From assembly GCF_032884065.1 (NCBI RefSeq), contig NC_088867.1:57982675-58046674 (forward strand): a DNA stretch of 64,000 nucleotides, read 5' to 3'. Origin of the DNA: Artemia franciscana. Its lineage: Eukaryota; Arthropoda; Branchiopoda; Anostraca; Artemiidae. A program made the translations under genes and the position numbers. This document shows positions 6,130 through 64,000 of this stretch, piece after piece. The notes under the pieces were generated by a model. The model was not told the origin of the DNA. It made no database searches and worked only from the letters and a program-made list of their open reading frames with translations. Each line of letters starts with the position of its first letter. Positions within the stretch are counted from its first letter, which is position 1.

Positions 6130-6990
6130 GGACTTCCATGTGCAGATTACCATTAAATCTTATATAAGTATGCATATATAAGTACATAAGTGCAGTCTTA
6201 AAGCAGTTTGTCCATATAGCTTTTTTATTATAAATGTCTATTTTTCAGAACGTCTTACTAGATAAGAGGAAAGATTTCTTGATAACCATATTTAAATTTT
6301 CTAACACTAAATTGTGAAAAATTAGTATACATTGTCGCAAAATTGAAAGACTAAATTCTTTTAGCCGAAACCATCGTTAAAGAGTCTATCACCTGCAGTG
6401 AATTATTAACACTCCAGTATGGATTAAAATTCGAAAACTTTTTAATACCAAAAAAACAGGTTTTAAGTTTATTTATAATTTCCTTTAAAATTAAAGAGAG
6501 GTCAGTAGCAGCAATGCAGGTTGGAAATCTAGCTGCTCCAGCAAATAACCGTGTCCTAGGGGGATTCTTATGAATTTTTACAGTCCAATATAGGAAAGGG
6601 AACTTTTTATGATTGTCATTAATTCTAATATTAAATTTTTTTTAAGTATTTCCTTAGTTCTTTCAATTAAATTTTCATCCTCTAAATTCACCTTTTCATT
6701 TCACCTTTTCATAAACATTAGTCGTGCATAACTCCCTTGCTAAGACATCACAATACAGCTTCTGACAAATTATGGCAAAATTATTATTAGCTTTATCCAC
6801 TGGCACAATTACAAATTCATTATGTAGCTTAGCAATTGCTTGTTTTATTCTAGCATTATAAAATAATGGTTTAGTGTTACTATTTTTTATATTAGTATAT
6901 ATTTTATTTTTTATTCTATTAATTAATTAATATATTCTATTAAAAGTTTCTTCCCGTATTCTATTAAAAGTTTCTTCCCAATCTCTCCAC
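6130..6990 (-). pseudogene. Fragment of the RT gene found intact-like at 59.0-60.7 kb
   Basis: The DNA matches the minus-strand RT of the large duplication: cttatataag, aatttgtccatatagc, gataagaggaaagatttctt, the ctttatccactggcacaat block (the VDKANNN motif region), and attgcttgttttattct. It spans roughly from the motif A/B linker back to the region before VDKANNN. It is broken by many indels and a small internal duplication (caccttttcatttcacct), and has no open frame. It is older than copies A and B and sits inside the R2 array. Confidence 0.85.
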
Positions 6991-10903: not shown

Positions 10904-12986
10904 TCAGGTGTAAAGCAGAAGAAAAAGCAGAAGAATATTTTCATAAATAGCATATTCAAGCTTTAACTCATCACCAAAATCAAAAAGTTTTGAGCCACTA
11001 TGCTCTATTGGAGTCATATAGCACTTCCCATCACTTGAGACATTATTCAATATGGCTTGAACATTTTCAATCCAGATGTTGCTATTTTTTTCGTCAAAAA
11101 TGGGAAATTTTGTGAATCGGCTTGATCTAAGGAGCTCAAACTCAGAGGGAAAGTCAGTCTCGTCTAGAATATATGTAAATATACTACTATGTACGATACG
11201 CTCTGCATTCAGCTCATTGCTCAGGAGCTTGAGAATTTTTCCAAATTCTTCTGGGGTTGAAAGAGGAGAATAGGACTGAATTCTGGACAAAAAATCGTTT
11301 TTCTGTTGAATATTTGCTGCCACATTTATAAGTTTGGACAGACTGGAATAGATTTGCTTTCCCGTCGATCGAAAATTAAGCATTGTGCAAGTGACTAGGT
11401 CATCAAGTGCATTTTTACTGGACGCATCATTGTCCAATGTAGCCTTTAATGTGTTTCTTAGGATTCCAGTACGTCTATGAAATTTATCGATTGTGAACTG
11501 GATATTAGCAATCTCATACTTAACTTCGATAGCCTTTTCTGAAAAATCAATTTTTAAATCAACAAGTGACGTCAGCGAATCAAGCTCCGCTACGATTTGG
11601 CCTCCTAGTAGGCTAGAAGCATCGAAAATTACAGATTTCAACCGAGAAACCAACAGACGAACTTTATGACGTTGAAACCTGGTGCTTATCCTGTGTCCGT
11701 TTTCTAGATGGCCATTCAAATTACATGGGAAGATTGATGAAGGTATGACAAATTTTTTTTTTTTTTACAACACTATTTCTAAAACTTTTAAACGTGTTAA
11801 ATGCTTTGTTAATGTCTCTTGTTGAGTTCAACGCATTCAGGATACGAATACCTTCCTGTACAAGTTTCTCCGCTTCAGCACGTTCAATATAAGCAAATGA
11901 CATTCGTTGTTTGGAACATCGACTAAACATATTTTTTTGTTCCAATACAAATGTGTCTAACATAGGACTAATTTTTTCTGTAATTCCTAATGGTAATTTA
12001 CTTAGTAGTTCTCGGGAGCTTGAAAGTGTGGTGGAAAAATGTTCCTTCAAGCACTCACGGTCTTGTTTGGGGAAGTACATGCAGACGTGAAGGAGTTTCA
12101 TCAACTATGATTGAATTTCACTTATTGCAATCTGTATGTTATCATATTTTCCATTGATTTTGTTAGCCGAGCTTCAGTTACATCCCATACTTTCTTAACC
12201 AATCCTTTTTTGTCATTCATTTTGGCTTTGCTCTGCAAGGACACTCAATTTGTTTTTTTCCTCATCTGTTAAGGACTTGATAGCTTCAACCAGATTTTCA
12301 ATCGTATTATTTTATTATATTCATCATTATCTTATCTTATATTATTATTATTATTATTATTATCTTATTATATTCAATCTTATTATTTCTCTCGATTTCA
12401 TTTAGATTTTCGCTAAAGAGAAACACATACTCAGTTACGTTTTGTTTTGTGTTAGCAGCAAACAAATTATCCATTATGTCAGCATCACGAAATTTGGCAC
12501 CTGAATTAATCTTTTCAAGTACTAGTTAATACAAATTCGTCATTATTGTTGGTGTAACAACAGTACCAGTAAGGACTCTAACTTGGCCTCTTTCTTGTAA
12601 AATCAATGTAATTAATTTAATTAGACTGTTTGAAACGATCTGATCCTTCCCCTTTAAGGCTAGTATATTTTAAATACTCATCTATCCTCGGGAGATGCAA
12701 ATAAGGGAATCCTACAACTTGAAGTGACTTGAAACATTGCTTTAGTTCTTTGTGTATAGAATTTCGGTTTGTTGCAGTTTGGGTTTCTGATTCAAATTCT
12801 TCTTCTAAAACTTCGTCTGTAAGATCTTCGTCACTTTCGTAGCCTTACATTTTATTCACTATTACGACTCATCGCCCGTCCATAAAGTCAGTGCAAAGCT
12901 CACCACTCTCATCTTGGATTTTATTTGCCAAATTCAGTAAAAATTCAATTTTGTAAGCTCCTTATCTGCCCGTAAGGAATCGGAGA
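10904..12986 (-). pseudogene. Unrecognised multicopy gene, copy 1 (longest, decayed)
   Basis: Two adjoining frames on the minus strand (12104-11721 and 11719-10904) read as one protein if the T run at ~11753-11765 is one base off. Further upstream, coding-like text continues with stops and shifts to 12986. Examples are GYESDEDLTDEVLEEEFESE near 12840, INSGAKFRDADIMDNLFAAN near 12500 and LVEAIKSLTDEEKNKLSVLA near 12280. I see no domain I know, only helix-rich, Lys/Glu/Ser-rich sequence without signal peptide or membrane segment. The last 200 residues match copies 2 and 3 closely, up to a tyrosine-glutamate-asparagine where this copy diverges into a Leu-rich tail. The upstream end is cut exactly where the large duplication begins (12987). 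It is probably a dead copy; no function is proposed. Confidence 0.7.
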
Positions 12987-13490
12987 TGCCCTCCAATTTT
13001 ATTTGTCACTGAAAAAGGGCACTAGAACTTTTTTTCCGTTAGAATGAGCCCTCTCGCAACATTCTTCGACCGCTGGGTCGAAACGATCACCCCCGAAAAA
13101 AAAACAAAAAAAAACACGAACCTTGTGATCAGTCTTCTGGCAAAAATACGAAATTCCACTATTCTTAGATAGGAGCTTGAAAATTCTACAGTAGGGTTTT
13201 CTGATACCCTCAATATGATGATACTATTATCATTAAGATTCTATGACTTTTAGGGGGGGGGGTATTTTCTCCCATTTTCCAACATAAGGCAAATTCTATC
13301 TGGCTTGTAACTTTTGACCACGACTAAATTTGATGAAACCTATATATTTTAAATCCGAATAAAAATCGGATTCTTTTGACGTATCTATTAGTATCAAAAT
13401 CCCATTTTTAAAGTTTCGTTTACTATTTCGGTTACTATTGAGCCGGATTGCTCCCTGCTATAGTTCGTTACCACGAACTGTTTGATTAGC
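12987..13490 (-). repeat. R1, inverted fragment with hairpin head
   Basis: It reads leftward from the head hairpin (cagttcgtggtaacgaact type, here at ~13463-13486 as its complement) through cgattcttttgacgta-type text to the tgccctccaatttt block, where copy A of the duplication starts. In copy B the same R1 piece continues further left, so copy A is truncated here. Confidence 0.75.
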
Positions 13491-13499
13491 TCTAAGTTA

Positions 13500-15080
13500 T
13501 AAAATTTGCCCACTCCTTGCATATAGTAACTGTTATTGAGAAGTGCACATATATTTTCGGAGGGAAAGGGGTGATTTTTTGCTAAATTGGGTTTCCGTGG
13601 GAATAATTATCTACAGAAAGGGAAGTTTTCAATGGTGACCTTTCCTGGAGAAATTTTACACTGAGAGGATTTGAAATAATTTGCAAAACGAAATTCTTTT
13701 TAGTGTCTTTCTTTCTCTTTTCCAACTCAATTTGTTTTATAAGATGTTCTGGGGGAATTTACCGGGGGAGATTTTTGGCAGGTTCAGATTTCTGAGAATA
13801 ATGTACCTGGAAAGGTGATTTCTCGATTGATCGAAGAAACGATTAGAAATTTAACAGTCTTTTGAATTAAAGCATGTAAAGGAGAAGTGATTCAGATTGA
13901 ATCATCGGTAAAAATATTACGGAGAGGAAGAAAGAATTTTCAGCAGGGATAACATTGTCAGAAGGAAATTTTACAGGATAGGGGAAGGGCTGTTTTAGGT
14001 AAAAGGACTTTTCTACTCAAGAGTACCCTGTTATAGGAGGGGATTTTGCTTGGAGGCCGAAGCAGATTGACCAGTATTATATGAAGAACGATAAGAAATG
14101 AAATAAAAAGGAAAACGAAGTTTTTCAACAAAAAGTAAGGAACCATACTAAAACTCAAAATGAACAAAAATTATTCTATATATGAATGGGTTACCTCCTC
14201 CTTAATACCATTATCTTTATGCAAAAGTTTGGCAGTTTATCTCAATTTCTCAATAAAGACTCCTGAGACACAAGGGATATTAAATGAATAGGGAGCTTTT
14301 TTAAAAGTGCTTTAGCGTAAAAAGTAAGCTATGGAGGAGGGGGAGGGATAAACCCTTTATATAAGGAATAACTTCTTTTGGTTTGAGTTTTAACATTGCT
14401 CCTTACTTTCAGTTGAAAAAACTTCAGTTTTCTATATTTAAATACCTGAAGAAAGATCTTGGATGCGTGTTTATTTTTTTGTTTCTTGCGTTTTCCCATG
14501 GGTAATCGTATTGAATAAATGGTCCCAAAATATTGGAAGAGGTTTCATTCGAACGGAAATGAAGAGTTCTAATGCCCATTTTAGAGTGACAAAAAAAAAT
14601 TGGAGAGTAACTAAGCCTTGTCTCAAACGCCTTTTCCCCAAAAATTGTCCAATCAAAACTTGAGATATCTATTTCGTTCAACATAGTTGAAAGGTTAATA
14701 GGTATACCTTTGGTGATAACATAGCCCCCATCACCCCTGGGAAAAGTTCACTAAACTATAGATCTTGCCCATTTTTATGTATAGCATTTCCTAAAAGGAA
14801 GCATGGATTCATTTTTCTGGTGACGAGGGGGGTGGGGAGGAGTTTTCTGCTTCGGATGGTTTCCACGGAAAAATTATCCATGGAAAGGAAAGTTTCTGGG
14901 GACTGAAATACAGGAAGTACTGAATGAATAAAATACTGAAATGAAGGAAAGTTACACAGGGGGGAAATGTCAAAATTCGTTTACAGAATTCTTTTTCCTT
15001 GTCTAACTTTCTCTTTGGCGACTCAATTTTACGTTTGAAGATATAAAGGGTAACTGTCTGGAGTAAATTTTTACCGGGAC
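13500..15080. repeat. Repeat R3 with fold-back arms
   Basis: Non-coding repeat, also seen at 55.46-57.05 kb and, diverged, at 41.6-42.37 kb (shared text such as tttctttctcttttccaact). A fold-back pair lies at 14104-14415: caacaaaaagtaaggaacca on the left and tgctccttactttcagttga on the right. The short open frames on both strands are not protein-like. Confidence 0.65.
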
Positions 15081-15176
15081 TGGATTGTCAAAATGATATT
15101 CACCTCGAGGGAGGATCTTCCCTTGAAGGTAGAGCTGGATTTCTTGGCATTATTAAAAAACATCCAGAAATTAAAT

Positions 15177-15600
15177 AATAATAATAATAATAATAATTTA
15201 TTTATAACCCACAAAGTACATTAAACTGTGGAGTAAATACACACAAAAAAAAAAGAAAAAAAAAACAAGACAAAAAAAAACAACATAATTAACATAGGAG
15301 CATAGCAACATACAACATAATTAAATTACCTCAATTCAAAAAATGGCCAAAGATGGTCAAAAACCCCAATCATTTGCCGAGTTTTAAGACATATGTCTTT
15401 AGATAAATGTTTCAGTCACGAGGATGCATCAACGATGTCAAATTTAGAAACGACTGTATGATTCCGATACTACCGAGGCAGACGCAGCAAATACTTGCAA
15501 TACTTAAAGTATCCTGAGCGTATTTTCTTTGTATCCTTCTTGCGAAGGAGGAAAACAAAACCAGAAAGATAAAATGAAAACACAAGTTTTTCAACTGCAA
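15177..15600 (-). pseudogene. Non-LTR retrotransposon 3' end (last codons, 3' UTR, ATT tail)
   Basis: On the minus strand a short frame (15600-15412) ends SFLNLTSLMHPRD and stop. It is preceded by RRIQRKYAQDTLSIAS, the type of basic, alpha-helical end typical of LINE ORF2 proteins. After ~180 bp the strand finishes gggttataaataaattatta and a run of seven or eight ATT units. Ending in a simple-repeat tail is characteristic of several non-LTR clades. In duplication copy B (57.05 kb) the ATT tail has been deleted. Confidence 0.6.
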
Positions 15601-16375
15601 GTAAGAACTAGCATTGAAATTTCAAACGGCCAGAAATTATTATGCTTAAAAGGGGGTTTACTCCTTCTCCATGCCTTGGTAATTACGCTAAAATTGTAAT
15701 TTTACTCCAATCCCTTAAGGACGACTCATGAAATACAAAGTTCGTTTCGTTGGAATAATGAGAAGCTTTTTAGAAAGCACTAAGAAATTAGCGTGAAGAG
15801 CAAGGGATTGAAGAAGGGTCCTCCCCTTAACTACGTAATAATTTATGTTTTTTTTAAGTTTTAATGTTTGTTCTTGATTTTAGTTGAATAAAAAAGTGTT
15901 TTTTTTACTTTACTATTTCAAAGCACCCCAGAATTTATTAGTTCAACTGAAATTCCTGCTTTGTCTCCCTCTGACTTGAAACTAAAGATAATAATGATAA
16001 ATAGTGTGTGATGCATAAATTAAAGAGAGCTTAGGTAAAGAAACATTGTTGGTTGTTAGGGAGGCTAGAACTTTCAATTTAAGCTTAAATGAGCCCTCTC
16101 TCAATATTATAGGACCACTGGATCGATAGAATAACCCATGAGGAGAAAATAATTCCATGGTCTTTCTTCTGGTAATTAAATAAAAAAACATTAGTCTTAA
16201 TGCTAAAAGTAAGGACCAAAATCAAAACTCAAAACCAAAATACGAAAGGGTTTTCCCCTTCCTCAATAACTTGCTTTTTTTACTAAATACTTTAGCACCA
16301 AGGCAGACGCAGCAAATACTTGCAATACTTAAAGTATCCTGAGCGTTTTTTTTTGTATCCTTCTTGCGAAGGAGG
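15476..16375. repeat. Pair of ~75-bp direct repeats about 0.83 kb apart
   Basis: The text gcagacgcagcaaatacttg ... gtatccttcttgcgaaggag occurs at 15478-15550 and again at 16304-16372, just past the 3' side of the RT gene. Copy B holds the same pair at ~57297-57370 and ~58137-58210. The region between is non-coding and contains R3-like fold-back text. Confidence 0.85.
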
Positions 16376-16608
16376 AGGATAACAAGCTTATCCTGTTAAT
16401 ATATCCCTCATTTTATCAACAATAGGTAAACTAAATATGATAAATTTTACTAAATCACAAATATTAACACATGGCAAAAAACCTGAATGAACTAAACAAT
16501 TATAGAATTCATTTTTACCATGTGGCTATATTTAAAAAAAAATCCGCTCTATTAGAAACACAATTCAAAATAAATGGCGCTGCATCATGATTTCTCGAAC
16601 CTCCGAGA

Positions 16609-18873
16609 TTAGTTGAAAATTTCTTTAAATATTTCCAGATAATTCTTTTGATATTTATTTAAATGTTCGTTATAATGAAAACAAAATTTTTTAAATTGCC
16701 AAGTTAATTTATTTGCAGAAAAACCTCTTGATATCAATTTTTGGCTTAAGATTTTACATCTATTTTTTAAATCAATATAATTACTACAAATCCTTGCATA
16801 ACGAAGTAACTGTGAGAAAAACGCCGAATATGTGATATTTGAGTGTATATTACTTTCAGGGAATGGGAAACTAATCACTTCAAAATCAAAATCATCCGTT
16901 TTATTATACATTTTAAAACTTAATATATTATTATCACAAATATTAATATTTAAATCTAAGAAATGATCTTCATGACCAGCGCCATAACTAGGTTCAAGAG
17001 TAAGCTCTGATGGATATATATTTTTAGAAATATCAATGAAATCCTTACAATTTAAGACCAAAATATCATCTAAATATCTTTTATTATTTGACGAAACATG
17101 TTTTAAATTATTTGGATTATTCTTATCCATCTTATATTTATATTCTAGTTGACTTAAAACAAGTCAGCTATAAATGGGCTGGCTTCCCCCCCCCCCATGG
17201 GAATTCCCACGATTTGCTTGTACAAATCACCACCAAATCTTATATAAGTATTGTATAAAACAAATTCTAATAACTCAAAAATCATATCCAAGCTGTAACA
17301 TCTCAAGTTAACTGTAGTATTAAAGCAATTTGTCCATATAGCTTTTTTATTATAAGTGTCTATTTTTAAGAACCTTTTACTAGATAAGAGGAAAGATTTC
17401 TTGATAACAGTTTTTAAATTATCTAATACTACATTAAGTGATAAATTAGTAGCCTATACATTGTCGCAAAATCGAAAGACTCAATTCTTTTAGCTGAAAC
17501 CATTGTTAAAGAATCTATCACCTGCAGTGAATTATTAACACTCCAATATGGATTAAAATTCGAAAATTTTTAATACCAGAACAATAAGTTTTAAGTTTAT
17601 TTACAATTTCCTTTAAAATTAAAGAGAGGTCAGTAGCAGCAATGCGGGTTGGACATTTAGCTGCTCCAGCAATAAACCGTGGTTTAGGGGGATTCTTATG
17701 AAATTTTACAGTCCAATATAGGAAAGGGAACTTTTTATCATTGTCATTTATTTTAATATTAAAATTTTTTAAAAGTATTTCTTCAGTCTTTTCAATTAAA
17801 TTCTCATCCTCTAAATTTACCTTTTCGTAAACATTAGTTGTGCATAACTCCCTTTTTAAGATATCACAATACAGCTTCTGACAAATTATGGCAAAATTAT
17901 TATTAGCTTTATCCACTGGCACAATTACAAATTCATTCTGTAGATTAGCAATTGCTTGTTTAATCTTCGCATTATAAAATAATGATTTAGTGTTACTATT
18001 TTTTAAGTTAGAATATATTTTATTTCTTATTCTACTAATAATTAAATTCTTCCAACTTTGAAAACTCTCTTTATTTTTATTCTCTTTCTTACACCACTTA
18101 TCAATAAATAAATCAAAATCATTTTCCAAGCCATCAAGAACAATCGATGGTTTCAGATGATGAGAAAGACGGAAATTAGCCCCTTTATTCATTATAATTT
18201 GAAGATCATCTTGCTTTATTATTGACAAGTCTCCTGTTATAACATGTTTGTAAGTAGGATTTGCAAATGGGCCAAGTTGCTTACAATTACAAACCGGTTT
18301 CCAATTTATATCACTATCTAATCTTTTAAGTATCAAATTATAATTAAAAATAATTTGCCCAATAGTTTTTGAAAATTTATAAGTTAAAATTGGACTATCA
18401 TTATAATTCAAATTACTAGGAAGGGCCTGTTTCACATGCCGCTGATTTAAAATTTCTGGTAAATTAATATCTTCAATCTGCTTACAAGTAAAATTAATAG
18501 GTAAATATAATCTGTTATCCTTATTACCAATCTTATCAAACTTTTTCCTTTTTGAAATAAATTTTGTTTTAGTTAGAATACAAATTGTATCACATATTAC
18601 TTTAAAATTATATTCAAGAGCTGTATTATTCTTAACAATCCAGAAAAGTTTGATTAAATTCCTCTTGGATAAATTATTTATACATTTTATTACAGAAATT
18701 ATACCCCTAGATTCAAGTAGCTGGCATAGATCTATAAAAAGCATATGTAAATCTAATTCATTTTTTCTATTATTTTTCCTATGTCCTCTCGATCGTTTTT
18801 TACGTTTAGTAGGACAAGTGAAAGAATGATGGTCCATAAAACCATCAATACATTTAACAACAACCTGAGACAT
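16609..18873 (-). pseudogene. Reverse transcriptase gene, duplication copy A (frameshifted)
   Basis: A start at 18873 gives MSQVVVKCIDGFMDHHSF and a basic N-terminal region (KRKKRSRGHRKNNRK). The frame runs through NEFVIVPVDKANNNF and FLYWTVKFHKNPPKPRFIAG (RT fingers) to ~17570, where a T run one base shorter than in copy B shifts it. The rest of the palm follows in other frames: a GIPMG motif encoded by an 11-base G tract near 17188-17198, a second one-base loss in a T run just after it (ADLF region), then a 173-residue frame (17130-16609) with RYLDDILVLN, the catalytic YxDD box, and HFLDLNINI. This is the RT family common in corals, molluscs and other aquatic invertebrates, Penelope-like in motif layout. 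No GIY-YIG or other endonuclease is visible after the final N and stop. Confidence 0.9.
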
Positions 18874-18894
18874 GTCACCATATTTTGCTACACG

Positions 18895-20035
18895 ATCATT
18901 TACGAACTGTAAAAAACAGTTTCAATTCTTGATAATAATAGATACATCAAAAGGATAGAATTTTGAAGCTTAATCAAAACATATAAGATTCATGAAGTTT
19001 AATGCTACCCATCAAAAGTTATGAGTCTGAGAAACTGCCTAATTTTCACAAAAGGTGGAAACACCCATTAGAAATCAAGTGGTCTTAATGAAATTCACAC
19101 CATGAGATTCAGAATATCAGAAAACCCTACTGTAGAGGTTTCAAGTTCCTATATACAAAAATGTGGAATTTCAAATTTTTGCCAGAAGCAAGATCACGGA
19201 TGCGTGTTTATTTGTTTGTTTGTTTGTTTGTTTGTTTGTTTTTGTTTTTTTTTTCAGGGAGAATCATTTCGAACCAGTGATACTATAAGATCAGGATAAG
19301 GCTCTTTTGATCATAAATCAAAAGCTCTAGTGTCCTTTTTATGTGACCAAAAATATTAGAGGGCAGCTACCCCCCTCCTACCCCTCTTTTTATCCAAAAT
19401 TGTCCGAGTTTAATTTTGAGATAGCATTTTTTTCAGCATGGTTAAAAAATGGAATAACTATGTCTTTGAGGATGATTTGACCCCCCACAGCCTCCGGGGA
19501 AGGGCTGCAAGTTATGAACTTCGTGCATTTCTTACATACAGTATTGGCTATAGGGAAGTATTACAATATTTTTGGTTGAGGGGCTTCTGGTGGGGGTGAT
19601 TACGCAGAAAGATATTTCTACGGAGAAGTTTTCGTTTGAGAAGGGAATTTTCCATGGAAGAAGGAGCTGGAATTCTCGGCTTTGATTAAAAAACTATCAA
19701 AAATTAAATTGGACGCCTCACTCTTAATTTCTTTGCGAACACTACGAGGAAAATTTCGATCCTCGTATTCAATTTAGGTTAATTTGTGTTTCGACTTTTC
19801 TTTTGTTATCATATCTAATTTCTATAAAACCAAATTCTTTAGAAACGATTCCTGAAACACAAGGATCATTTATTTAGAACAATAAACAACCTTTTTAAAA
19901 GTACCAAAACCTTTAGCGTGAAGAGCGAGGTGCTGAGGAGGGGGCAACTCCCCTCATGTACCTTATAATTTCTGTTCGTTTTAAGCCTTAATGTTGCTCA
20001 TTAATTTCAGTTGAAAATATCTTGAAAATGAGCAA
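18895..20035 (+). repeat. R1 variant adjoining the RT 5' end
   Basis: It begins with its own small hairpin (aactgtaaaaaacagttt) and follows the R1 marker order: aagattcatgaagttta, catcaaaagttatgagtctg, agattcagaatatcag, ctctagtgtcctttttatgt. It ends with fold-back arm text at ~19990-20030. It also contains a GTTT microsatellite (~19205-19245). The same element lies at 60715-61822 in copy B. Confidence 0.7.
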
Positions 20036-20058
20036 AACAAATGTTCAAATTAAATTGT

Positions 20059-20335
20059 TCAAAGGAAGAAATTTGCCTCTACAGGCTTGCGTCGCAAGTG
20101 ATTAGACCAAATATAAATATAAAATAAAATATCCATATTGGCTAGGATAAAAGTAAAGAAGAAAAACTTATCCTCATTTGATTTTTTCTTAAAGGGTTTT
20201 CGTCGTGTAAAACTTAAACCGTGTCTTTCAAAGAGGGCAATGACTTCACACAACACCCACGGATGTAGACGCTCAAAATCTTCCTCTGATAAATCTTCCA
20301 TTCTTGTTATTCCACTTTCTACAGGTTCAGGAAAA
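20059..20335 (-). CDS. Exon-like minus-strand frame, unrecognised (copy A)
   Basis: On the minus strand a frame reads DVFPEPVESGITRMEDLSEE, then DFERLHPWVLCEVIALFERH and GLSFTRRKPFKKK, before turning into low-complexity Phe/Ile text. The beginning has the look of an exon: a T-rich tract and AG (here mutated to caag; tttttcag in copy B) stand before GATGTTTTTCC. The acidic-then-basic composition is more protein-like than the opposite strand. I do not recognise the family. The same frame is conserved in copy B at 61868-62160. No donor site is obvious. It could be the terminal exon of a gene read leftward, or chance. Confidence 0.3.
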
Positions 20336-21345
20336 ACATCTTGAAAAAAATGTCAAATTTAGGTTTTTTTTAAATTTGTTATTCTTCGGAGAAACAAACT
20401 TACTGTAAATGATTATTCAAACGATACGATGTGGCTATCACTGCAATCCTTGATATATCCTGCTTCTTACAGGTTCAGGAAAAACATCCTGAAAAAATGT
20501 CAAATATAATTTTTTTTCTTCGGTGAAACAAATCTTCTGTAAATGATTATTCAAAGGATACGATGTTGCTATCACTGCAATCCTTACATATCCCGCTTTT
20601 TACAGCTTCAGGAAAAACATCCCGAAAATGTCAATTTTTTTTTTAATTTGTTATTCTTCGGAGAAACAAAGTTACTGTAAATGATTATTCAAACGATACA
20701 ATGTGGCTATCACTGCAATCCTTGATATATCCCGCTTTTTACAGGTTCAGGAAGAACATCCTTAAAAAATGTCAATTTTTTTTAAAATTTGTTATTCTTC
20801 GGAAAAACAAAGTTATTATAAATGATCATTCAAACAATACGACGTGGTTATCACTGCAATCCTTGATATATCAAACTTTTTACAGGTTGCGGAAAAACAT
20901 CCTGAAAAAATGTCAAATTTTAGTTTTTTTCTAATTTGATAATCTTCGGAGAAACAAAGTTACTGTAAATGATTATTCAAACAATATGATGTGGCTATCA
21001 CTGCAGTCCTTGATATATCCCGCTTTTTACAGGTTCAGGTAAAATATCCTGAAATATGTCAAATTATAGTTGTTTTTTTTTTTAATTTGTTATTGTTCGG
21101 AGAAACAAAGTTACTGTAAATGATTATTCAAACGATACGATATGGCTATCACTGCAATCCTTGACATATCCCGCTTTTTACAGGTTCAGGAAAAACATCC
21201 TGAAAAAATGTCAATTTTTTTTTTAATTGTTATTCTTCGCAGAAACAAAGTTATTATAAATGATCATTCTAACGATACGACGTGGCTATCACTGCAATCC
21301 TTAATATATCAAACTTTTTACAGGTTACGGAAAAACATCCTGAAA
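20315..21345. repeat. Tandem array of eight ~140-bp units, each with a splice-acceptor-like core
   Basis: The core tttttacaggttcaggaaaa recurs near 20320, 20470, 20602, 20741, 20882, 21029, 21180 and 21321. Spacing is 130-150 bp. The rest of each unit also repeats (gagaaacaaagttactgtaa, gatgtggctatcactgcaat, ccttgatatatcccgc). The first unit overlaps the exon-like minus frame and the last one opens gene copy 2 on the plus strand. The core is therefore a repeated copy of a segment shared by both neighbours. Confidence 0.9.
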
Positions 21346-22375
21346 AAATGGAGTTTGGAGTTCAATTTTCCGATTTGATGAATGCTTATACTCCTGTTTC
21401 TTTGGCAAATATTGATATAAGCACCAGGTTTCAACGTCATAAAGTTTGTCAGTTGGTTTTTCGGTTGAAATCTGTAATTTTCGATGCTTCTAGCCTACTA
21501 GGAGGCCAAATCGTACCGGAGCTTGATTCGCTGACGTCACTTGTTCATTTAAAAATTGATTTTGCAGAAAGGCTCTCGAAGTTAAGTATGAGATTGCTAA
21601 TATCCAGTTCACAATCGATGAATTTCAAAGACGTACTGGAATCCTAAGAAACACATTAAAGGCTACATTGGACAATGATGCGTCCAGTAAAAATGCACTT
21701 GATGACCTAGTCACTTGCACAATGCTTAATTTTCTATCGACGGGAAAGCAAATCTATTCCAGTCTGTCCAAACTTATAAATGTGGTAGCATATATTCAAC
21801 AGAAAAACGATTTTTTGTCCAGAATTCAATCCTATTCTCCTCTTTCAACCCCAGAAGAATTTGGAAGAATTCTCAAGCTCCTGAGCAATGAGCTGAATGC
21901 AGAGCGTATCGTACATAATAGTATATTTAAATATATTCTATACGAAACTGACTTTCCCTCTGAGTTTGAGCTCGTTAGATCAAGCCGATCCGGAAAATTT
22001 CCCATTTTTGACGAAAAAAATGGCAACATCTGGATTGAAAATGTTCAAGCCATATTGAATAATGTCTCAAGTGATGGGAAGTGCTATATGACTTCAATAG
22101 AGCATATTGGCTCAAAACTTTTTGATTTTGGTGATGAGTTAAAGCTTGAACCTGCTATTTATGAAAATGCTTACAAAAACCCAGGCCCTGAGTGGATTAT
22201 TGAAGCATCAACTGTATATAATCATGCTGAACTTATAAATTATCCCTTTTCATCTTATTACAAAATTAGTGTCCCACAAAACTATCAAATAGGCAATGAT
22301 TTGTACAATATAAATGTGAATATGGCTTCAATTCGTCAACTAGAATTAATTTTCAAAGTATGGATTAAAAAGTGA
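21324..22375 (+). pseudogene. Unrecognised multicopy gene, copy 2 (one frameshift)
   Basis: The last tandem unit supplies a pyrimidine tract and CAG. Reading from 21324 gives VTEKHPEKMEFGVQFSDLM, then DISTRFQRHK and continuous protein to ~21570. There one base is missing compared with copy 1 (gcagaaaggc versus tcagaaaaggc), so the frame shifts. The rest runs from about 21668 to the stop at 22375, ending RQLELIFKVWIKK. Copy 1 shows the same protein in the other orientation but has a different sequence before DISTRFQRHK and a different end. No known domain, signal or membrane segment is seen. Either a recently broken terminal exon or a gene whose single frameshift is a sequencing error. Confidence 0.7.
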
Positions 22376-23879
22376 AAATATTCGCACAAATTTGGTCACT
22401 GAAGGATTTTAATCAAGTTGATATTTAAGCGTATGAAAATTTATTGGCACTTTTGTTATTTATTTCTCTTGTTAGATCTTTATTTTTTTTTTATTAGGTG
22501 GTACATAGGTGAGACCCATACCTTTGCAAAAAACCACAATAATGAGAACATTCAAAGCCACTAACAAGACTGGAAAGGCTATTATTAATTCACTTATTTA
22601 ACGTAAATTTATCCAAATAAACGTTTAACTCCATTCTTTATTATGCCGGCTAAACTTTTAAGTCAACGACCTAATTTGTTTTTAATTCGAATCTTAAAAA
22701 AAAATCTAAAGATAGAGAAAAAGTCACTATAAAACCTAAGACAAGCAGAAATAAAGTTTTATGAAAGTTCGATATATTTTTTCGAAAAAGTCAGTTTCAG
22801 ATTTGTTTATTCCTTTTAACTTAATTGTATCTGTTTTTCTTATGTTATTGAATAAACCTTTATCCCTCTTGCATCCATCCTCATGTCTCGTGAAATCCGG
22901 GTAAGATAGCAGGTGCTACTAGCTGTCTATTACTTCAAGTTTTTAGTTTATTTTTCCCTTTTCTACAACTACTGGTACTCTTACTACTACTACTACTAGT
23001 AGTATTACTGAAGCTAAGGATATTAAGACGAACCTTTCAGAGAATGTTGTGGAAAATCTTAAACTATATAGGAACACACTATGTCAATTTAGGTTATCGA
23101 ATGGGTGTAACAGGTATATTCCAAGGGCAAACTAGCGTATTCAGTTGAAACTTCCAGTGAATGTTAAAGGCGATGTTGAAATAACCAAAAAGCACTATAT
23201 GCATACTAAAAAAGCACTATAGCTACCCCTTTCTACCTACAAAATACCCACCGCACTTCCTTCATAATAGCTGATGCACAATTATATTACACATTACATA
23301 TCAAGCATTAATATGAATATTTATATTAACCACTCATCTTATATGGACTGCAAAACTGTTTCAGCAACTGAGAAGTTCAACATACAAAAACTAAATGCTT
23401 TTAGATTGATTGGATATATCAGAATTTTTCAGTTTGTTTCAAATCGTAGTTTGATGATGTAGTCAGTAAATTGACAGAACCAATCAAATTTAGTATTGAT
23501 GATTCGACAGTTATTTATTTCAGCAGTGCAGGTAATATTTTTGGCGCCAAAATGTTGAGTAAAAGAAAAAAAAAACAAAAAAAAAGAATTGTAAAACACT
23601 TTTGTCTCTAAAATAATTAGAACACGATTTTTTTCCACTTTTTTTCTCTTAAAAAATGATATTTCTTTATACTGAAAATGTAACTCATGTTTTTGGCCTT
23701 AGTCTTAAAATTTTCAGATTTCCAGGTAAAGGTTTTTTTTATTACTTCTTAGTAATAAAAAAAATATGTCTTTTAAAGTTGTTTATGTTATTGTTCTTGT
23801 CTTCTTTGTGCGCCTGTGGTGTCACACTGCTTGTGTGACCGCAGTAAGCTCATCTCTACTTGGCGTTTCGGGGATTCAA
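22376..23879. other. No gene recognised
   Basis: To 22547 this is still duplicated sequence (3' flank of the unrecognised gene). Around 22975-23130 a block with ctactactactactagtagt followed by cgaatgggtgtaacagg resembles the units at 44.4-46.7 kb. Short open frames are AT-driven. Confidence 0.5.
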
Positions 23880-33480: not shown

Positions 33481-33492
33481 GTCCTGTTCCAA

Positions 33493-52861: not shown

Positions 52862-53299
<438 letters not shown>

Positions 53300-54439: not shown

Positions 54440-54958
54440 AACAAAACAGTTCTTCGTAATAAAATGTAGGTAAGTAGTGACATAGCTAGTCAGTATCCGA
54501 AACTCTAAAAAATTGAATTTTAATATCAATGCGTGCTTCAAAACAAGTGAATTAGTATGGCAATTCAAAATACGTAAGATTCATCAATGTTAGTGTTACC
54601 TGTCAAAAGTTACGAGTCTGAGAAAACTTGCCTTATTTAAAAAAAAGGGATAAACGATCAAAGAATTTTAATAAAAAACAAACTATGAGATTCAGCGTAT
54701 CGGAAAACCGCGTTGTATTAGTCTGAAGCTCATATGACGGCGTCGTTCTAGCAAAAATTTAAAGCTCTAGCGTCATTTTACGTGACTAAAAAGATGAGAA
54801 GGCGACTTGTCCCTCTCCCAGGTTAGGTTAGGTTTCCCTAGGTTTTTGTCCCCAAAGACTTAGTTATTAGGTTTTGCGACTATGCTGAACAAAATGACCA
54901 TCTCAGAATTTTGACCCGTTGACTTTGGGAAAAAAATGAGTGGGGAAGGGGGTCTAGG
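54440..54958. repeat. Two R1 fragments in opposite orientation, joined head to tail
   Basis: 54440-54800 reads plus from a degenerate head (acagttcttcgtaataaaat) to aagctctagcgtcatttta. From ~54830 the text is R1 minus (ccccaaagacttagttatta, atctcagaattttga), which runs on across the duplication boundary into 54959-55455. Confidence 0.75.
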
Positions 54959-57900
54959 TGCCCTCCAATTTTATTTGTCACTGAAAATGGCACTAGAACT
55001 TTTGTTTTCCGTTAGAATGAGCCCTCTCACAACATTCTTCGACCGCTGGGTCGAAACGATCACCCCCGAAAAAAAACAAAAAAAAACACGAACCTTGTGA
55101 TCAGTCTTCTGGCAAAAATACGAAATTCCACTATTTTTAGATAGGAGCTTGAAAATTCTACAGTAGGGTTTTCTGATACGCTCAATATGATGATACCATT
55201 ATCATTATGATTCTATGACTTTTAGGGGGGGTATTTTCTCCCATTTTCCAACATAAGGCAAATTCTATCTGGCTTGTAACTTTTGACCACGACTAAATTT
55301 GATGAGACCTATATATTTTAAATCCGAATAAAAATCGGATTCTTTTGACGTATCTATTAGTATCAAAATCCCATTTTTAAAGTTTCGTTTACTATTTCGG
55401 TTACTATTGAGCCGGATTGCTCCCTGCTACAGTTCGTTACCACGAACTATTTGATTAGCTCTAAGTTATAAAATTTGCCCACTCCTTGCATATAGTAACT
55501 GTTATTGAGAAGTGCACATATATTTTCGGAGGGAAAGGGTGATTTTTTGCTAAATTGGGTTTCCGTGGGAATAATTATCTACAGAAAGGGAAGTTTTCAA
55601 TGGTGACCTTTCCTGGAAAAATTTTACACTGAGAGGATTTGAAATGATTTGCAAAACGAAATTCTTTTTAGTGTCTTTCTTTCTCTTTTCCAACTCAATT
55701 TGTTTTATAAGATGTTCTGGGGGAATTTACCGGGGGAGATTTTTGGCAGGTTCAGATTTCTGAGAATAATGTACCTTGAAAGGTGATTTCTCGATTGATC
55801 GAAGAAACGATTAGAAATTGAACAGTCTTTTGAATTAAAGCATGTAAAGGAGAAATGATTCAGGCTGAATCATCGGCAAACATATTACGGAGAGGAAGAA
55901 AGAATTTTCAGCAGGGATAACATTGTCAGAGGGAAATTTTACAGGATAGGGGAAGGGCTGTTTTAGGTAGAAGGACTTTTCTACTCAAGAGTACCCCGTT
56001 ATAGGAGGGGATTTTGCTTGGAGGCCGAAGCAGATTGACCAGTATTATAAGAAGAACGATAAGAAATGAAATAAAAAGGAAAACGAAGTTTTTCAACAAA
56101 AAGTAAGGAACCATACTAAAACTCAAAATGAACAAAAATTATTCTATATATGAATGGGTTACCTCCTCCTTAATACCGTTATCTTTAAGCAAAAGTTTGG
56201 CAGTTTATCTCAATTTCTCAATAAAGACTCCTGAAACACAAGGGATATTAAATGAATAGGGAGCTTTTTTAAAAGTGCTTTAGCGTAAAAAGTAAGCTAT
56301 GGAGGAGGGGGAGGGATAAACCCTTCATATAAGGAATAACTTCGTTTGGTTTGAGTTTTAACATTGCTCCTTTCTTTCAGTTGAAAAAACTTCAGTTTTC
56401 TATATTTAAATACCTGAAGAAAGATCTTGGATGCGTGTTTATTTTTTTGTTTCTTGCGTTTTCCCATGGGTAATCGTATTGAATAAAAGGTCCCAAAATA
56501 TTGGAAGAGGTTTCATTCGAACGGAAATGAAAAGTTCTAATGCCCATTTTAGAGTGACAAAAATTGGAGAGTAACTAAGCCTTGTCTCAAACGCCTTTTC
56601 CCCAAAAATTGTCCAATCAAAACTTGAGATTTCTATTTCGTTCAACATAGTTGAAAGGTTAATAGGTATACCTTTGGTGATAACATAGCCCCCATCACCC
56701 CTGGGAAAAGTTCACTAAGCTATAGATTTTGCCTATTTTTATGTATAGTATTTCTTAAAAGGAAGCATGGATTCATTTTTCTGGTGACAAGGGGGGTGGG
56801 GAGGAGTTTTCTGCTTGGGATGGTTTCCACGGAAAAATTATCCATGGAAAGGAAAGTTTCTGGGGACTGAAATACAGGAAGTACTGAATGAATAAAATAC
56901 TGAAATGAAGGGAAGTTACACAGGGGGAAAATGTCAAAATTCGTTTACAGAATTCTTTTTCATTGTCTAACTTTCTCTTTGGCGACTCAATTTTACGTTT
57001 GAAGATATAAAGGGTAACTGTCTGGAGTAAATTTTTACCGGGACTGTGGAGTAAATACACACAAAAAAAAAGAAAAAAAAACAAGACAAAAAAAAAATAA
57101 CAACATAAATAACATAGCAGCATAGCAACATACAATATAATTAAATTACCTCAATTCAAAAAATGGCCAAAGAGGGTCGAAAACCCCAATCATTTGCCGA
57201 GTTTTAAGACATATGTCTTTAGATAAATGTTTCAGTCACGAGGATGCATCAACGATGTCAAATTTAGAAACGACTGTATGATTCCGATACTACCGAGGCA
57301 GACGCAGCAAATACTTGCAATACTTAAAGTATCCTGAGCGTATTTTCTTTGTATCCTTCTTGCGAAGGAGAAAACAAAACCAGAAAGATAAAATGAAAAC
57401 ACAAGTTTTTCAACTGCAAGTAAGAACTAGCATTGAAATTTCAAACGTTCAGAAATTATTATGCTTAAAAGGGGGTTTACTCCTTCTCCATGCCTTGGTA
57501 ATTACGCTAAAATTGTAATTTTACTCCAATCCCTTAAGGACGACTCATGAAATACAAAGTTCGTTTCATTGGAATAATGAGAAGCTTTTTCAAAAGCACT
57601 AAGAAATTAGCGTGAAGAGCAAGGGATTGAGGAAGGGTCCTCCCCTTAACTACGTAATAATTTATGTTTTTTTTAAGTTTTAATGTTTGTTCTTGATTTT
57701 AGTTGAATAAAAAAGTATTTTTTTTTACTTTATTATTTCAAAGCACCCCAGAATTTATTAGTTCAACTGAAATTCCTGCTTTGTCTCCCTCTGACTTGAA
57801 ACTAAAGAAAATAATGATAAATAGTGTGTAATGCATAAATTAAAGAGAGCTTAGGTAAAGAAACATTGTTGGTTGTTAGGGAGGCTAGAACTTTTAATTT

Positions 57901-58442
57901 AAGCTTAAATGAGCCCTCTCTCAATAGTATAGGACCACTGGATCGATAGAATAACCCATGAGGAGAAAATAATTCCATGGTCTTTCTTCTGGTAATTAAA
58001 TAAAAAAACATTAGTCTTAATGCTAAAAGTAAGGACAAAAATCAAAACTCAAAACCAAAATATTCTTTCTCCGATTACGAAAGGGTTTTCCCCTTCATCA
58101 ATAACTTGCCTTTTTTACTAAATACTTTAGCACCGAGGCAGACGCAGCAAATACTTGCAATACTTAAAGTATCCTGAGCGTATTTTTTTGTATCCTTCTT
58201 GCGAAGGAGGAGGATAACAAGCTTATCCTGTTAATATATCCCTCATTTTATCAACAATAGGTAAACTAAATATGATAAATTTTACCAAATCACAAATATT
58301 AACACATTGCAAAAAACCAGAATGAACTAAACAATTATAGAATTCATCTTTACCATGTGGCTATTTTTAAAAAAATTCCACTCTATTAGAAACACAATTC
58401 AAAATAAATGGCGCTGCATCATGATTTCTCGAACCTCCGAAA

Positions 58443-60703
58443 TTAGTTGAAAATTTCTTTAAGTATTTCCAGATAATTCTTTTGATATTTATTTAAAAGT
58501 TCGTTATAATGAAAACAAATTTTTTTAAATTGCCAAGTTAATTTATGTGCAGAAAAACCTCTTGATATCAATTTTTGGCTTAAGATTTTGCATCTATTTT
58601 TAAAATCAATATAATTACTACAAATCCTTGCATAACGAAGTAACTGTGAGAAAAACGCCGAATATGTGATATTTGAGTGTATATTACTGTCAGAGAATGG
58701 GAAACTAATCACTTCAAAATCAAAATCATCCGTTTTATTATACATTTTAAAACTTAATTTATTATTATCACAAATATTAATATTTAAATCTAAGAAATGA
58801 TCTTCATGACCAGCGCCATGACTAGGTTCAAGAGTTAGCTCTGATGGATATATATTTTTAGAAATATCAATGAAATCCTTACAATTTAAGACCAAAATAT
58901 CATCTAAATATCTTTTATTATTTGACAAAACATGTTTTAAATTATTTGGATTATTCTTATCCATCATATATTTATATTCTAGTTGACTTAAAAACAAGTC
59001 AGCTATAAATGGGCTGGCATCCCCCCCCCCATGGGAATTCCCACGATTTGCTTGTACAAATCACTACCAAATCTTATATAAGTATTGTATAAAACAAATT
59101 CTAATAACTCAAAAATCATATCCAAGCTGTAACATCTTAAGTTAACTGTAGTATTAAAGCAATTTGTCCATATAGCTTTTTTATTATAAGTGTCTATTTT
59201 TAAGAACCTTTTACTAGATAAGAGGAAAGATTTCTTGATAACAGTTTTTAAATTATCTAACACTACATTAAGTGATAAATTAGTATACATTGTCGCAAAA
59301 TCGAAAGACTCAATTCTTTTAGCTGAAACCATTGTTAAAGAATCTGTCACCTGCAGTGAATTATTAACACTCCAATATGGATTAAAATTCGAAAATTTTT
59401 TAATACCAGAACAATAAGTTTTAAGTTTATTTACAATTTCCTTTAAAATTAAAGAGAGGTCAGTAGCAGCAATGCGGGTTGGACATTTAGATGCTCCAGC
59501 AATAAACCGTGGTTTAGGGGGATTCTTATGAAATTTTAAAGTCCAATATAGGAAAGGGAACTTTTTATCATTGTCATTTATTTTAATATTAAAATTTCTA
59601 AAAAGTATTTCTTCAGTCTTTTCAATTAAATTCTCATTCTCTAAATTTACCTTTTCGTAAACATTAGTTGTGCATAACTCCCTTTTTAAGATATCACAAT
59701 ACAGCTTCTGACAAATTACGGCAAAATTATTATTAGCTTTATCCACTGGCACAATTACAAATTCATTCTGTAGATTAGCAATTGCTTGTTTAATCTTCGC
59801 ATTATAAAATAATGATTTAGTGTTACTATTTTTATAGTTAGAATATATTTTATTTCTTATTCTACTAATAATTAAATTCTTCCAACTTTGAAAACTCTCT
59901 TTATTTTTATTCTCTTTCTTACACCACTTATCAAAAAATAAATCAAAATCATTTTCCAAGCCATCGAGAACAATCGATGGTTTCAGATGATCAGAAAGAC
60001 GGAAATTAGCCCCTTTATTCATTATAATTTGAAGATCATCTTGCTTTATTATTGACAAGTCCCCTGTTATAACATGTTTGTAAGTAGGATTTACAAATGG
60101 GCCAAGTTGCTTACAATTACAAACCGGTTTCCAATTTATATCACTATCTAATCTTTTAAGTATCAAATTATAATTAAAAATAATTTGCCCAATAGTTTTT
60201 GAAAATTTATAAGTTAAAATTGGACTATCATTATAATTCAAATTACTAGGAAGGGCCTGTTTGACATGCCGCTGATTTAAAATTTCTGGTAAATTAATAT
60301 CTTCAATCTGCTTACAAGTAAAATTAATAGGTAAATATAATCTGTTATCCTTATTACCAATCTTATCAAACTTTTTCTTTTTTGAAATAAATTTCGTTTT
60401 AGTTAGAATGCAAATTGTATCACATATTACTTTAAAATTATATTCAAGAGCTGTATTATTCTTAACAATCCAGAAAAGTTTGATTAAATTCCTCTTGGAT
60501 AAATTATTTAGACATTTTATTACAGAAATCATACCCCTAGATTCAAGTAGCTGGCATAGATCTATAGAAAGCATATGTAAATCTAATTCATTTTTTCTAT
60601 TATTTTTCCTATGTCCTCTCGATCGTTTTTTACGTTTAGTAGGACAAGTGAAAGAATGATGGTCCATAAAACCATCAATACATTTAACAACAACCTGAGA
60701 CAT
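58443..60703 (-). pseudogene. Reverse transcriptase gene, duplication copy B (one frame break in the catalytic region)
   Basis: The best RT in the window. Start 60703; basic stretch at residues 20-38; CNCKQLGPF near 196-204; GDLSII near 214-219; VDKANNNF near 320-327; FPFLYWTLKFHKNPPKPRF near 382-400; motif A FDFATMYTNLS near 467-477; motif B KQIVGIPMG near 551-559. Motif B is encoded by a run of 10 G (59021-59030 on the plus strand as C) that throws the frame into GGMPAHL and stop at 59003. The rest, beginning near FLSQLEYKYM, is open from 58997 to 58443 with RYLDDIL (motif C) and HFLDLNINI. Total length would be about 750 residues, like relatives in aquatic invertebrates. No endonuclease domain is seen. 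Either the tract slipped, inactivating the gene, or it was misread. Confidence 0.92.
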
Positions 60704-60714
60704 GTCACCATATT

Positions 60715-61822
60715 TTGCTACACGATCATTTACGAACTGTAAAAAACAGTTTCAAGTCTTGATAATAATAGATACATAAAAAAGGATAGAATTTTGAAGC
60801 TTAATCAAAACATATAAGATTCATGAAGTTTAATGCTACCCATCAAAAGTTATGAGTCTGAGAAACTGCCTAATTTTCACTAAAGGGGGAAACACCCATA
60901 AGAAATCAAATGGTCTTGATGAAATTCACACCATGAGATTCAGAATATCAGAAAACCCTACTGTAGAGGTTTCAAGCTCCTATATACAAAAATGTGGAAT
61001 TTTAAATTTTTGCCAGAAGCAAGATCACGGATGCGTGTTTATTTGTTTTTTTTGTTTTTTTTTCAGGGAGAATCATTTCGAACCAGTGATACTATAAGAT
61101 CAGGATAAGGCTCTTTTGATCATAAATCAAAAGCTCTAGTGTCCTTTTTATGTGACCAAAAATATTGGAGGGCAGCTACCCCCCTCCCACCCCTCTTTTT
61201 ATCCAAAATTGTCCGAGTTTAATTTTGAGATAGCATTTTTTTTCAGCATGGTTGAAAAATGGAATAACTATGTCTTTGAGGATGATTTGACCCCCCACAG
61301 CCTCCGGGGAAGGGCTGCAAGTTATGAACTTCGTGCATTCCTTACATACAGTATTGGCTATAGGGAAGTATTACAATATTTTCGGTTGAGGGGCTTCTGG
61401 TGGGGGTGATTACGTAGAAAGATATTTCCACAGAGGAGTTTTCGTTTGAGAAGGGAATTTTCCATGGGAGAGGAGCTGGAATTCTCGGCTTTAATTAAAA
61501 AACTATCAGAAATTAAATTGGACGCCTCACTCTTAATTTCTTTACGAACCCTACGAGGAAAACTTCGATCCTCGTATTTAATTTAGGTTAATTTGTGTTT
61601 CGACTTTTCTTTTGTTATCATATCTAATTTCGATAAGACCAAATTCTTTAGAAACGATTCCTGAAACCCAAGGGTCATTTATTTAGAACAATAAGCAACC
61701 TTTTTAAAAGTACCAAAACCTTTGGCGTGAAGAGCGAGGTGCTGAGGAGGGGGCAACTACCCTCATGTACCTTATAATTTCTGTTCATTTTAAGCCTTAA
61801 TGTTGCTCATTAATTTCAGTTG
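60715..61822 (+). repeat. R1 variant, copy B
   Basis: Counterpart of 18895-20035, starting at aactgtaaaaaacagttt and ending in gttgctcattaatttcagtt. The GTTT run of copy A is shorter here (~61039-61060). Confidence 0.7.
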
Positions 61823-61867
61823 AAAATATCTTGAAAATGAGCAAACCAAATGTTCAAATTAAATTGT

Positions 61868-62160
61868 TCAAAGGAAGAAATTTGCCTCTACAGGCTTGCC
61901 TCGCAAGTGATTAGACCAAATATAAATATAAAATAAAATATCCATATTGACTAGGATAAAAGTAAAGAAGAAAAACTTATCCTCATTTGATTTTTTCTTA
62001 AAGGCTTTTCGTCGTGTAAAACTTAAACCGTGTCTTTCAAAGAGGGCAATGACTTCAGACAACACCCACGGATGTAGACGCTCAAAATCTTCCTCTGATA
62101 CATCTTCCATTCTTGTTATTCCACTTTCTACAGGTTCAGGAAAAACATCTGAAAAAATGT
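61868..62160 (-). CDS. Exon-like minus-strand frame, unrecognised (copy B)
   Basis: Same frame as 20059-20335: DVFPEPVESGITRMEDVSEE, DFERLHPWVLSEVIALFERH, GLSFTRRKAFKKK. Here the presumed acceptor is intact in form (gacattttttcag before GATGTT at about 62150). Three residue changes against copy A (L/V, C/S, P/A) and no frame break in the core. Unrecognised; it may be a real exon of a leftward gene. Confidence 0.33.
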
Positions 62161-62995
62161 CAAATATAATTTTTTTTCTTCGGTGAAACAAATCTTCTGT
62201 AAATAATTATTCAAAGGATACGATGTGGCTATCACTACAATCTTTGACATATCCCGCTTTTTACAGGTTCAGGAAGAACATCCTGAAAAAATGTCAATTT
62301 TTTTAAAATTCGTTATTCTTCGGAAAAACAAAGTTATTATAAATGATCATTCAAACGATACGACGTGGCTATCACTGCAATCCTTGATATATCAAACTTT
62401 TTACAGGTTGCGGAAAAATATCCTGAAAAAATGTCAAATTTTACTTTTTTTCTAATTTGTTACTCTTCGGAGAAACAAAGTTACTGTAAATGATTATTCA
62501 AACAATACGATGCGGCTATCACTGCAATCCTTGATATATCCCGCTTTTTACAGGTTCAGGTAAAATATCCTGAAAAAATGTCAAATTTTAGTTTTTTTAA
62601 TCTGTTATTCTTCGGAGAAACAAAGTTACTGTAAATGATTATTCTAACAATACGACGTGGCTATCACTGCAATCCTTGATATATCCCGCTTATTACAGGT
62701 TCAGGAAAAACATCCTGAAATATGTCAAATTATAGTTTGTTTTTTTTTTAATTTGTTATTGTTCGGAGAAACAAAGTTACTGTAAATGATTATTCAAACG
62801 ATACGATGTGGCTATCATTGCAATCCTTGACATATCCCGCTTTTTACAGGTTCAGGAAAAACATCCTGAAAAAATGTCAATTTTTTTTTTTTAATTGTTA
62901 TTCTTCGGAGAAACAAAGTTATTATAAATGATCATTCTAACGATACGACGTGGCTATCACTGCAATCCTTGATATATCAAACTTTTTACAGGTTA
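62120..62995. repeat. Tandem array of seven ~140-bp acceptor-like units (copy B)
   Basis: Cores (ttacaggttcagg type) near 62130, 62263, 62403, 62545, 62695, 62845 and 62989. One unit fewer than copy A, and the unit variants are not in the same order throughout, so the array has changed since the duplication. Confidence 0.9.
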
Positions 62996-63829
62996 CAGAA
63001 AAACATCCTGAAAAAATGGAGTTTGGAGTTCAATTTTCTGATTTGATGAATGCTTATACTCCTGTTTCTTTGGCAAATAGTGATATAAGCACCAGGTTTC
63101 AACGTCATAAAGTTCGTCAGTTGGTTTCTCGGTTGAAATCTGTAATCTTCGATGCTTCTAGCCTACTAGGAGGCCAAATCGTACCGGAGCTTGATTCGCC
63201 GACGTCACAACATATATTCAACAGAAAAACGATTTTTTGTCCAGAATTCAGTCCTATTCTCCTCTTTCAACCCCAGAAGAATTTGGAAAAATTCTCAAGC
63301 TCCTGAGCAATGAGCTGAATGCAGAGCGTATCGTAAATAGTAGTATATTTAAATATATTCTAGACGAAACTGACTTTCCCTCTGAGCTTGAGCTCTTTTC
63401 GTCAAAAATGGGAAATTTTGTTGATCGGCTTGATCAAGCCGATCCGCAAAATTTCCCATTTTTGACGAAAAAAATGGCAACATCTGGATTGAAAATGTTC
63501 AAGCAATATTGGATAATGTCTCAAGTGATGGGAAGTGCTATATGACTTCAATAGAGCATAGTGGCTCAAAACTTTTTGATTTTGGTGATGAGTTAAAGCT
63601 TGAACCTGCTATTTATGAAAATACTTACAAAAACCCAGGCCCTGAGTGGATTATTGAAGCATCAACTGTGTATAATGATGCTGAACTTATAAATTATCCC
63701 TTTTCATCTTATTACAAAATTAGTGTCCCACAAAACTATCAAATAGGCAATGATTTGTGCAATATAAATGTGAATATGTCTTCAATTCGTCAACTAGAAT
63801 TAATTTTCAAAGTATGGATTAAAAAGTGA
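62992..63829 (+). pseudogene. Unrecognised multicopy gene, copy 3 (deleted and rearranged)
   Basis: It starts like copy 2 (VTEKHPEKMEFGVQFSDLM, DISTRFQRHKVRQLVSRL). After ELDSPTS near 63207 about 245 bases present in copy 2 are missing, shifting the frame. It resumes as SRIQSYSPLSTPEEFGKIL. At 63396-63471 a 76-base palindrome replaces the single strand text of copies 1 and 2. The final part runs open to the stop at 63829 and ends RQLELIFKVWIKK. The deletion and palindrome make this copy non-functional for the full protein. The 3' flank to 64000 matches copy A. Confidence 0.75.
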
Positions 63830-64000
63830 AAATATTCGCACAAATTTGGTCACTGAAGGATTTTAATCAAGTTGATATTTAAGCGTATGAAAATTTATTG
63901 GCACTTTTGTTATTTATTTCTCTTGTTAGATCTTTATTTTTTTTTATTAGGTGGTACATAGGTGAGACCCACACCTTTGCAAAAAACCACAATAATGAGA

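Follow-up and report, generated by a model that had tools for sequence, protein, structure and literature searches.

The 64-kb window of Artemia franciscana DNA analysed here, by which we mean the whole stretch of 64,000 nucleotides, contains three copies of one protein-coding-like sequence (copies 1, 2, and 3, Table 1), which are most probably recent non-functional fragments of a single ancestral coding gene of unknown family that has been multiplied as DNA. The locus looks like the product of ordinary genome wear and duplication, and not like an active gene family. In the scenario that we favour, one locus consisting of a divergent ORF, a tandem array, and the gene was duplicated along with no less than 9 kb of the repeat-rich DNA beside it, giving rise to copies 2 and 3, and copy 1 would be another piece of this gene, 753 bp long, placed in inverted orientation against an older and more decayed coding relic. 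Each copy would have drifted neutrally thereafter: copy 2 lost its frame by one base, and copy 3 lost about 246 bases and gained an insertion, which would be the fold-back product of a polymerase that copied the strand it was making. The array would have grown by unequal exchange involving the sequence that directly precedes the first ATG.

Table 1. Features of the 64-kb window (positions count from its first base)
Feature	Position	Strand	Basis
Copy 1, shared coding stretch, 251 codons, 0 disruptions	10937..11689	-	96.3% to 21417-22168; disruption count
Probable decayed coding relic beside copy 1, disrupted at least 11 times by stops or frame switches	11690..12983	-	disruption test
Copy 2, from ATG to stop codon, frame shifted by a single base near 21567	21348..22375	+	frame and alignment
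Copy 3, ~246-bp deletion at 63208, 32-bp palindromic insertion at 63396-63427	62987..63829	+	alignment
Long direct duplication, first copy (A); left end within dispersed repeat R1	12984..22547	+	self-comparison, alignment
Long direct duplication, second copy (B); right end beyond window	54956..64000	+	self-comparison, alignment
Tandem array, 141- to 147-bp unit	20308..21350	+	tandem-repeat scan
Counterpart of this array in duplicate B	62167..63018	+	tandem-repeat scan
Divergent short ORF across array, ATG 20301	20059..20352	-	frame scan; second copy 61868-62206
RT-like ORF in duplicated segment, frameshift-broken	16609..18921	-	RT motifs by eye
Same RT-like ORF, second copy (frames P0006, P0008)	58443..60751	-	RT motifs by eye
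R1 dispersed repeat, at least 8 places	3195-3608, 12984-13487, 18905-19559, 33491-34587, 39368-40421, 50519-52011, 54849-55456, 60759-61369		self-comparison

That the same protein is found at three places, as claimed in the original prediction, is borne out by the self-comparison of the window (best 150 matches listed) and by open frames at these positions. Copies 1 and 2 align at 96.3% identity over 753 columns, copies 1 and 3 in separate blocks of 416 columns (88.5%) and 124 columns (96.8%), and copies 2 and 3 also in two blocks (92.1% and 93.6%), in which the array and flank are counted. The shared stretch of copy 2 continues to the stop codon at 22375, and the part of copy 3 resembling the stretch shared by copies 1 and 2 spans 63085-63829 on the plus strand. 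Copy 1 is open at 10904-11764 on the minus strand (286 codons), copy 2 at 21273-21647 and 21560-22375, and copy 3 at 62941-63306 and 63434-63829, the latter four on the plus strand. In 100 dinucleotide shuffles of the window, from which the AT microsatellite had been removed, the longest frame had 134 codons at the median and 167 at most, and was thus shorter than the frames of 286 and 271 codons. In addition, the minimum count of stops and frame switches that have to be passed in crossing each stretch is below that of 300 shuffles each, namely 0 versus a mean of 8.4 in copy 1, 2 versus 11.9 in copy 2, and 3 versus 9.5 in copy 3, the terminal stop being included in each of the latter two. Open frames exceeding chance in this way argue that the ancestor of the three copies was a coding gene. 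Because the 251 codons of copy 1 are fully open and the breaks in copies 2 and 3 are few, a functional relative must have existed in the very recent past. Such a relative may exist elsewhere, and the discovery of a living parent would add a small new family to the annotation.

The copies are differently broken, as had been noted: copy 2 carries the frameshift, copy 3 the deletion (relative to copy 2) and the insertion, and copy 1 is unbroken within its 753 bases, the match stopping at 10937 and at 11689 with both gene ends missing. The reverse complement of the first 25 of the 32 inserted bases of copy 3 lies just downstream of the insertion. The two arms of 25 bp form a perfect inverted repeat, and the whole is a 76-base hairpin whose fold as DNA has a z-score of -10.9, not equalled by any of 200 shuffles. 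The insertion has the form expected of a template switch by fold-back. It resembles the quasipalindrome template-switch mutations described earlier (PMC7954356, PMC7202029) in making perfect inverted arms beside unchanged sequence, and differs from them in that it is a single event deduced from sequence only. The locus provides an example in which such a fold-back insertion is cleanly visible.

The small number of amino-acid changes among the copies had been taken as an argument for recent coding function, and a comparison of synonymous with nonsynonymous differences had been suggested as a check. The comparison speaks against the argument. With the method of Nei and Gojobori and stop-bearing codons set aside, the ratio of nonsynonymous to synonymous changes is 24:2 over 249 codons between copies 1 and 2, 15:3 over 167 codons between copies 1 and 3, and 17:5 over 259 codons between copies 2 and 3, where neutrality would give 20.4, 14.1, and 17.4 nonsynonymous changes, respectively. 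The probabilities of finding as few nonsynonymous changes under neutrality are 0.99, 0.78, and 0.50, and in all three pairs nonsynonymous changes are about as frequent as under neutrality or more so, the counts being small (18-26 changes per pair) and still compatible with weak constraint. Over the 506 columns common to all three copies, copies 1, 2, and 3 have 11, 8, and 8 private changes, of which 1, 1, and 2 are synonymous (the nonsynonymous counts take in one nonsense change of copy 3 at the edge of its insertion). Thus, none of the three branches shows the deficit of nonsynonymous change that membership in a constrained gene family would leave. Nor does the gene diverge more slowly than its flanks between the duplicates carrying copies 2 and 3: its identity is 96.9-97.1%, compared to 98.1, 98.0, 97.3, 97.6, and 95.8% for non-coding pieces, 99.4% just downstream of the gene (171 columns), 98.4% for the RT-like frame, 98.0% for the divergent ORF, and 92.7% for the array. 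The protein changes among the copies are few because the DNA is young, and high protein identity, which had been taken for constraint, should be read with caution in such cases. The nonsynonymous excess between copies 1 and 2 has a simulated P of 0.005 (at least 24 nonsynonymous changes and no stop in 26 changes); as one comparison among several, it is not read as positive selection. We consider it quite unlikely that the copies are only locally broken members of a lineage-specific gene family that is otherwise alive and expanded. Open frames far beyond chance, the ATG at the edge of the array, and the lack of a recognised domain would suit such a family, but every copy in the window is broken or truncated and none of the branches is short of nonsynonymous change.

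The three sequences are real, but copies 2 and 3 are not independent of each other; they are one locus that was duplicated together with its flanks. The two long segments (A and B in Table 1) match in direct orientation and continue to do so right up to the window's end. Outside the array, their identity is 95.7-98.6% in 500-bp bins, with one end bin of 16 columns at 93.8%. Copies 2 and 3 share flanks well beyond the gene, and copy 1 shares none with them. The suggestion that the gene might be cargo holds in so far as copies 2 and 3 do ride on a longer duplicated segment. The R1 repeat of the second segment reaches 107 bases further left than the R1 repeat at 12984, and its left limit (54848-54849) is common to five other R1 matches in the window. 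The R1 repeat at 12984 starts 107 bases in and abuts the neighbour of copy 1. The simplest geometry would be a tandem duplication in direct orientation, with a period near 42 kb and its joint inside R1, in which case the sequence between 12984 and about 54955 would be found again past position 64000. The same picture would result from a haplotype duplication, in which a mis-assembly has put both alleles of a single locus in tandem as copies 2 and 3. The divergence of about 2-3% outside the array, the match that does not end within the window, and the private lesions would all agree with this, as would the somewhat high proportion of duplicated BUSCOs and the two-copy k-mer signal given in the 2024 Artemia assembly paper (PMC11492255). 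However, the window contains no gap (N), and we regard an assembly origin of the pair as doubtful. A genuine duplication of the locus would share with tandem and segmental duplications containing pseudogene copies that long near-identical direct copies are present, that genes and repeats are copied together, and that neutral drift is accompanied by private lesions. It differs from known segmental duplications in that the right end lies beyond the window and the gene belongs to no family recognised by the libraries searched.

The duplicated segment also includes an RT-like ORF, the motifs of which presumably resemble those of Penelope-like retrotransposons. Some Penelope-like branches do without the GIY-YIG endonuclease, for which no Pfam match was obtained (E up to 1) in the frames P0006 and P0008 of the second copy. 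Neither was a Pfam RT row found for these two frames at E up to 1, and the match of the NCBIfam group II RT to P0008 is below the cut-off (E 0.047). The RT-like ORF found no partner in PDB at E up to 5 and nothing in viral_contigs. It differs from Penelope-like retrotransposons, as described in the literature (PMC11167929), in having no GIY-YIG match and showing no tandem element or pLTR, and also in that its 5' side abuts R1 and may be truncated. Between the duplicates, it has accumulated 27 nonsynonymous and 9 synonymous changes (ratio 0.70), which does not differ from neutrality (P 0.23). A third piece of the RT-like family is located at 6116-6930 on the minus strand; its part 6187-6930 contains 3 stops in 241 codons and has a pN/pS of 0.59 compared to the second copy. 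The presence of the RT-like ORF could mean that gene, array, and RT make up a mobile element, autonomous or passenger, that corresponds to the duplicated segment, and that each copy is an insertion. The star-like divergence of the three copies (11, 8, and 8 private changes), as expected after a burst from one source, and the fact that copy 1 has no flank in common with the others would support this. However, the left end of the first duplicate lies in the middle of the R1 repeat and not at an element end, the piece of the RT family near 6116-6930 has neither array nor gene beside it, and the left junctions, inspected by eye, are free of terminal repeats and target-site duplications, the right end lying beyond the window. 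An element of this kind is unlikely.

Copy 1 had been described as having a long decayed N-terminal extension. The decayed coding character of the 1294 bases next to it is probable. On the strand of copy 1, 11 disruptions are needed to cross them, compared to a shuffle mean of 17.8 (P 0.003), and on the opposite strand 12 compared to 12.2. Of four control stretches subjected to the same test one was also low (P 0.027), and the remaining values were between 0.31 and 0.72. The extension is probably an old coding relic. Its assignment to copy 1 is less certain: the extension has decayed far more than the rest of copy 1 and therefore need not belong to the same copy or gene. With 11 disruptions in the adjoining 1294 bases compared to none in the 753 bases, copy 1 looks chimaeric, and the relic appears older than the shared part. 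Elsewhere in the window, the relic has a single match of 32 bp, which lies within its ATT-rich microsatellite. No flank common to copy 1 and copies 2 or 3 was found in the self-comparison, among the matches listed, or in a regional comparison. Gene conversion was rejected as the origin of copy 1 because neither side of its 753 bases resembles copies 2 and 3.

The start of copies 2 and 3 had been proposed to be fed by a tandem array, and the array indeed runs into the first ATG of the gene at 21348, which makes the locus an example of an array ending at a start codon. A splice-acceptor-like (T)nACAG occurs in the array units, together with an imperfect palindrome that approximates TTCAGGA-N6-TCCTGAA. 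Allowing up to 3 mismatches, the 20-base palindrome core matches 8 times in the first array and 7 times in the second (15 in all, 0.02 expected). The hairpin of the core is weak, 13 of 200 shuffles being equally good. A scan of the array for bacterial promoters and terminators, which is not designed for such DNA, gave values near the shuffle mean. The divergent ORF is no longer than expected by chance (P 0.16 in the shuffle test) and differs between the duplicates by 5 nonsynonymous and 0 synonymous changes. With this ORF pointing away from its other side, the array resembles the shared upstream region of two divergent genes. That the fragments descend from an undescribed, still living protein family of this lineage, whose genes each face a second gene across a self-amplifying ~147-bp array acting as their common promoter and which spreads by segmental duplication, is very improbable. 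An array with a palindromic core between two divergent ATGs is also reminiscent of large DNA viruses, of which the locus could be an integrated relic with palindrome-bearing repeat arrays between divergent genes, and endogenous nimaviruses have been described in crustaceans (PMC10871703). However, a term search of the text of that report finds Artemia, Anostraca, and branchiopods nowhere mentioned. Neither the proteins of the gene nor the RT has a relative in viral_contigs, although such scans mostly catch close relatives, and in Pfam neither the gene nor the divergent ORF has a match that reaches the cut-off. A single sub-threshold viral Pfam row, of a coronavirus family (E 0.11), is taken as chance. 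The divergent ORF, no longer than chance, also speaks against a viral origin, which is very improbable. Just left of the divergent ORF, a short dispersed repeat is found at 19845-20024, which is 73-81% alike at many sites of the window, and the stretch 19561-20307 has 20 non-self matches in the window, one of which is the duplicate itself.

The protein was thought to lack a known domain, and none was recognised in the libraries searched. The profile searches that had been suggested gave nothing above cut-off or better than chance in Pfam, NCBIfam, PHROGs, and PDB. In Pfam (P0001 at E up to 1, P0003 and P0005 up to 10) the best sub-threshold row is DUF713 with copy 1 (E 0.061), in NCBIfam (E up to 1) the best E is 0.025, far below the cut-off, and PHROGs yielded one row below cut-off, for a piece of the relic (E 0.028). 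Single-sequence and profile searches of PDB sequences returned only rows of E 0.26-0.68, which are taken as chance. The protein has no relative in viral_contigs and genome_contigs, and copy 1 none in the plasmids; among the phages, copy 2 retrieved a single phage, present in two records, at E 0.5, which is also taken as chance. These genome collections are viral, prokaryotic, phage, and plasmid, and therefore their silence says little about animals. A resemblance of the C-terminal end of the protein to Tc-toxin A-like proteins was considered. Libraries such as those searched hold Tc-toxin members, and this reading was rejected as no such match was found in Pfam, NCBIfam, and PDB.

The window is very repeat-rich and has a GC content of 33.7%, consistent with the GC content of 34% and the repeat contents of 58% and 67.26% given for Artemia in published work (PMC8406910, PMC11492255). 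A tRNA scan with bacterial settings found no tRNA in the window, and in an Rfam scan of the window no family reached its gathering score. Fragments of Pfam RVT_1 are located at 4461-5312 (E 4e-13) and 27550-27885 (E 3e-12), both on the plus strand, and these two frames fit a repeat-rich eukaryote genome. The R1 pieces range from about 400 bp to over 1 kb, and R1 looks like a repeat of brine shrimp. Related repeats of a further family, which share about 70-80% similarity and lie in both orientations, are found at several places including 8122-9714, 23888-25142, and 35515-36784. At 52863-53299, a (TA)n microsatellite of 437 bp opens spurious long frames on both strands.
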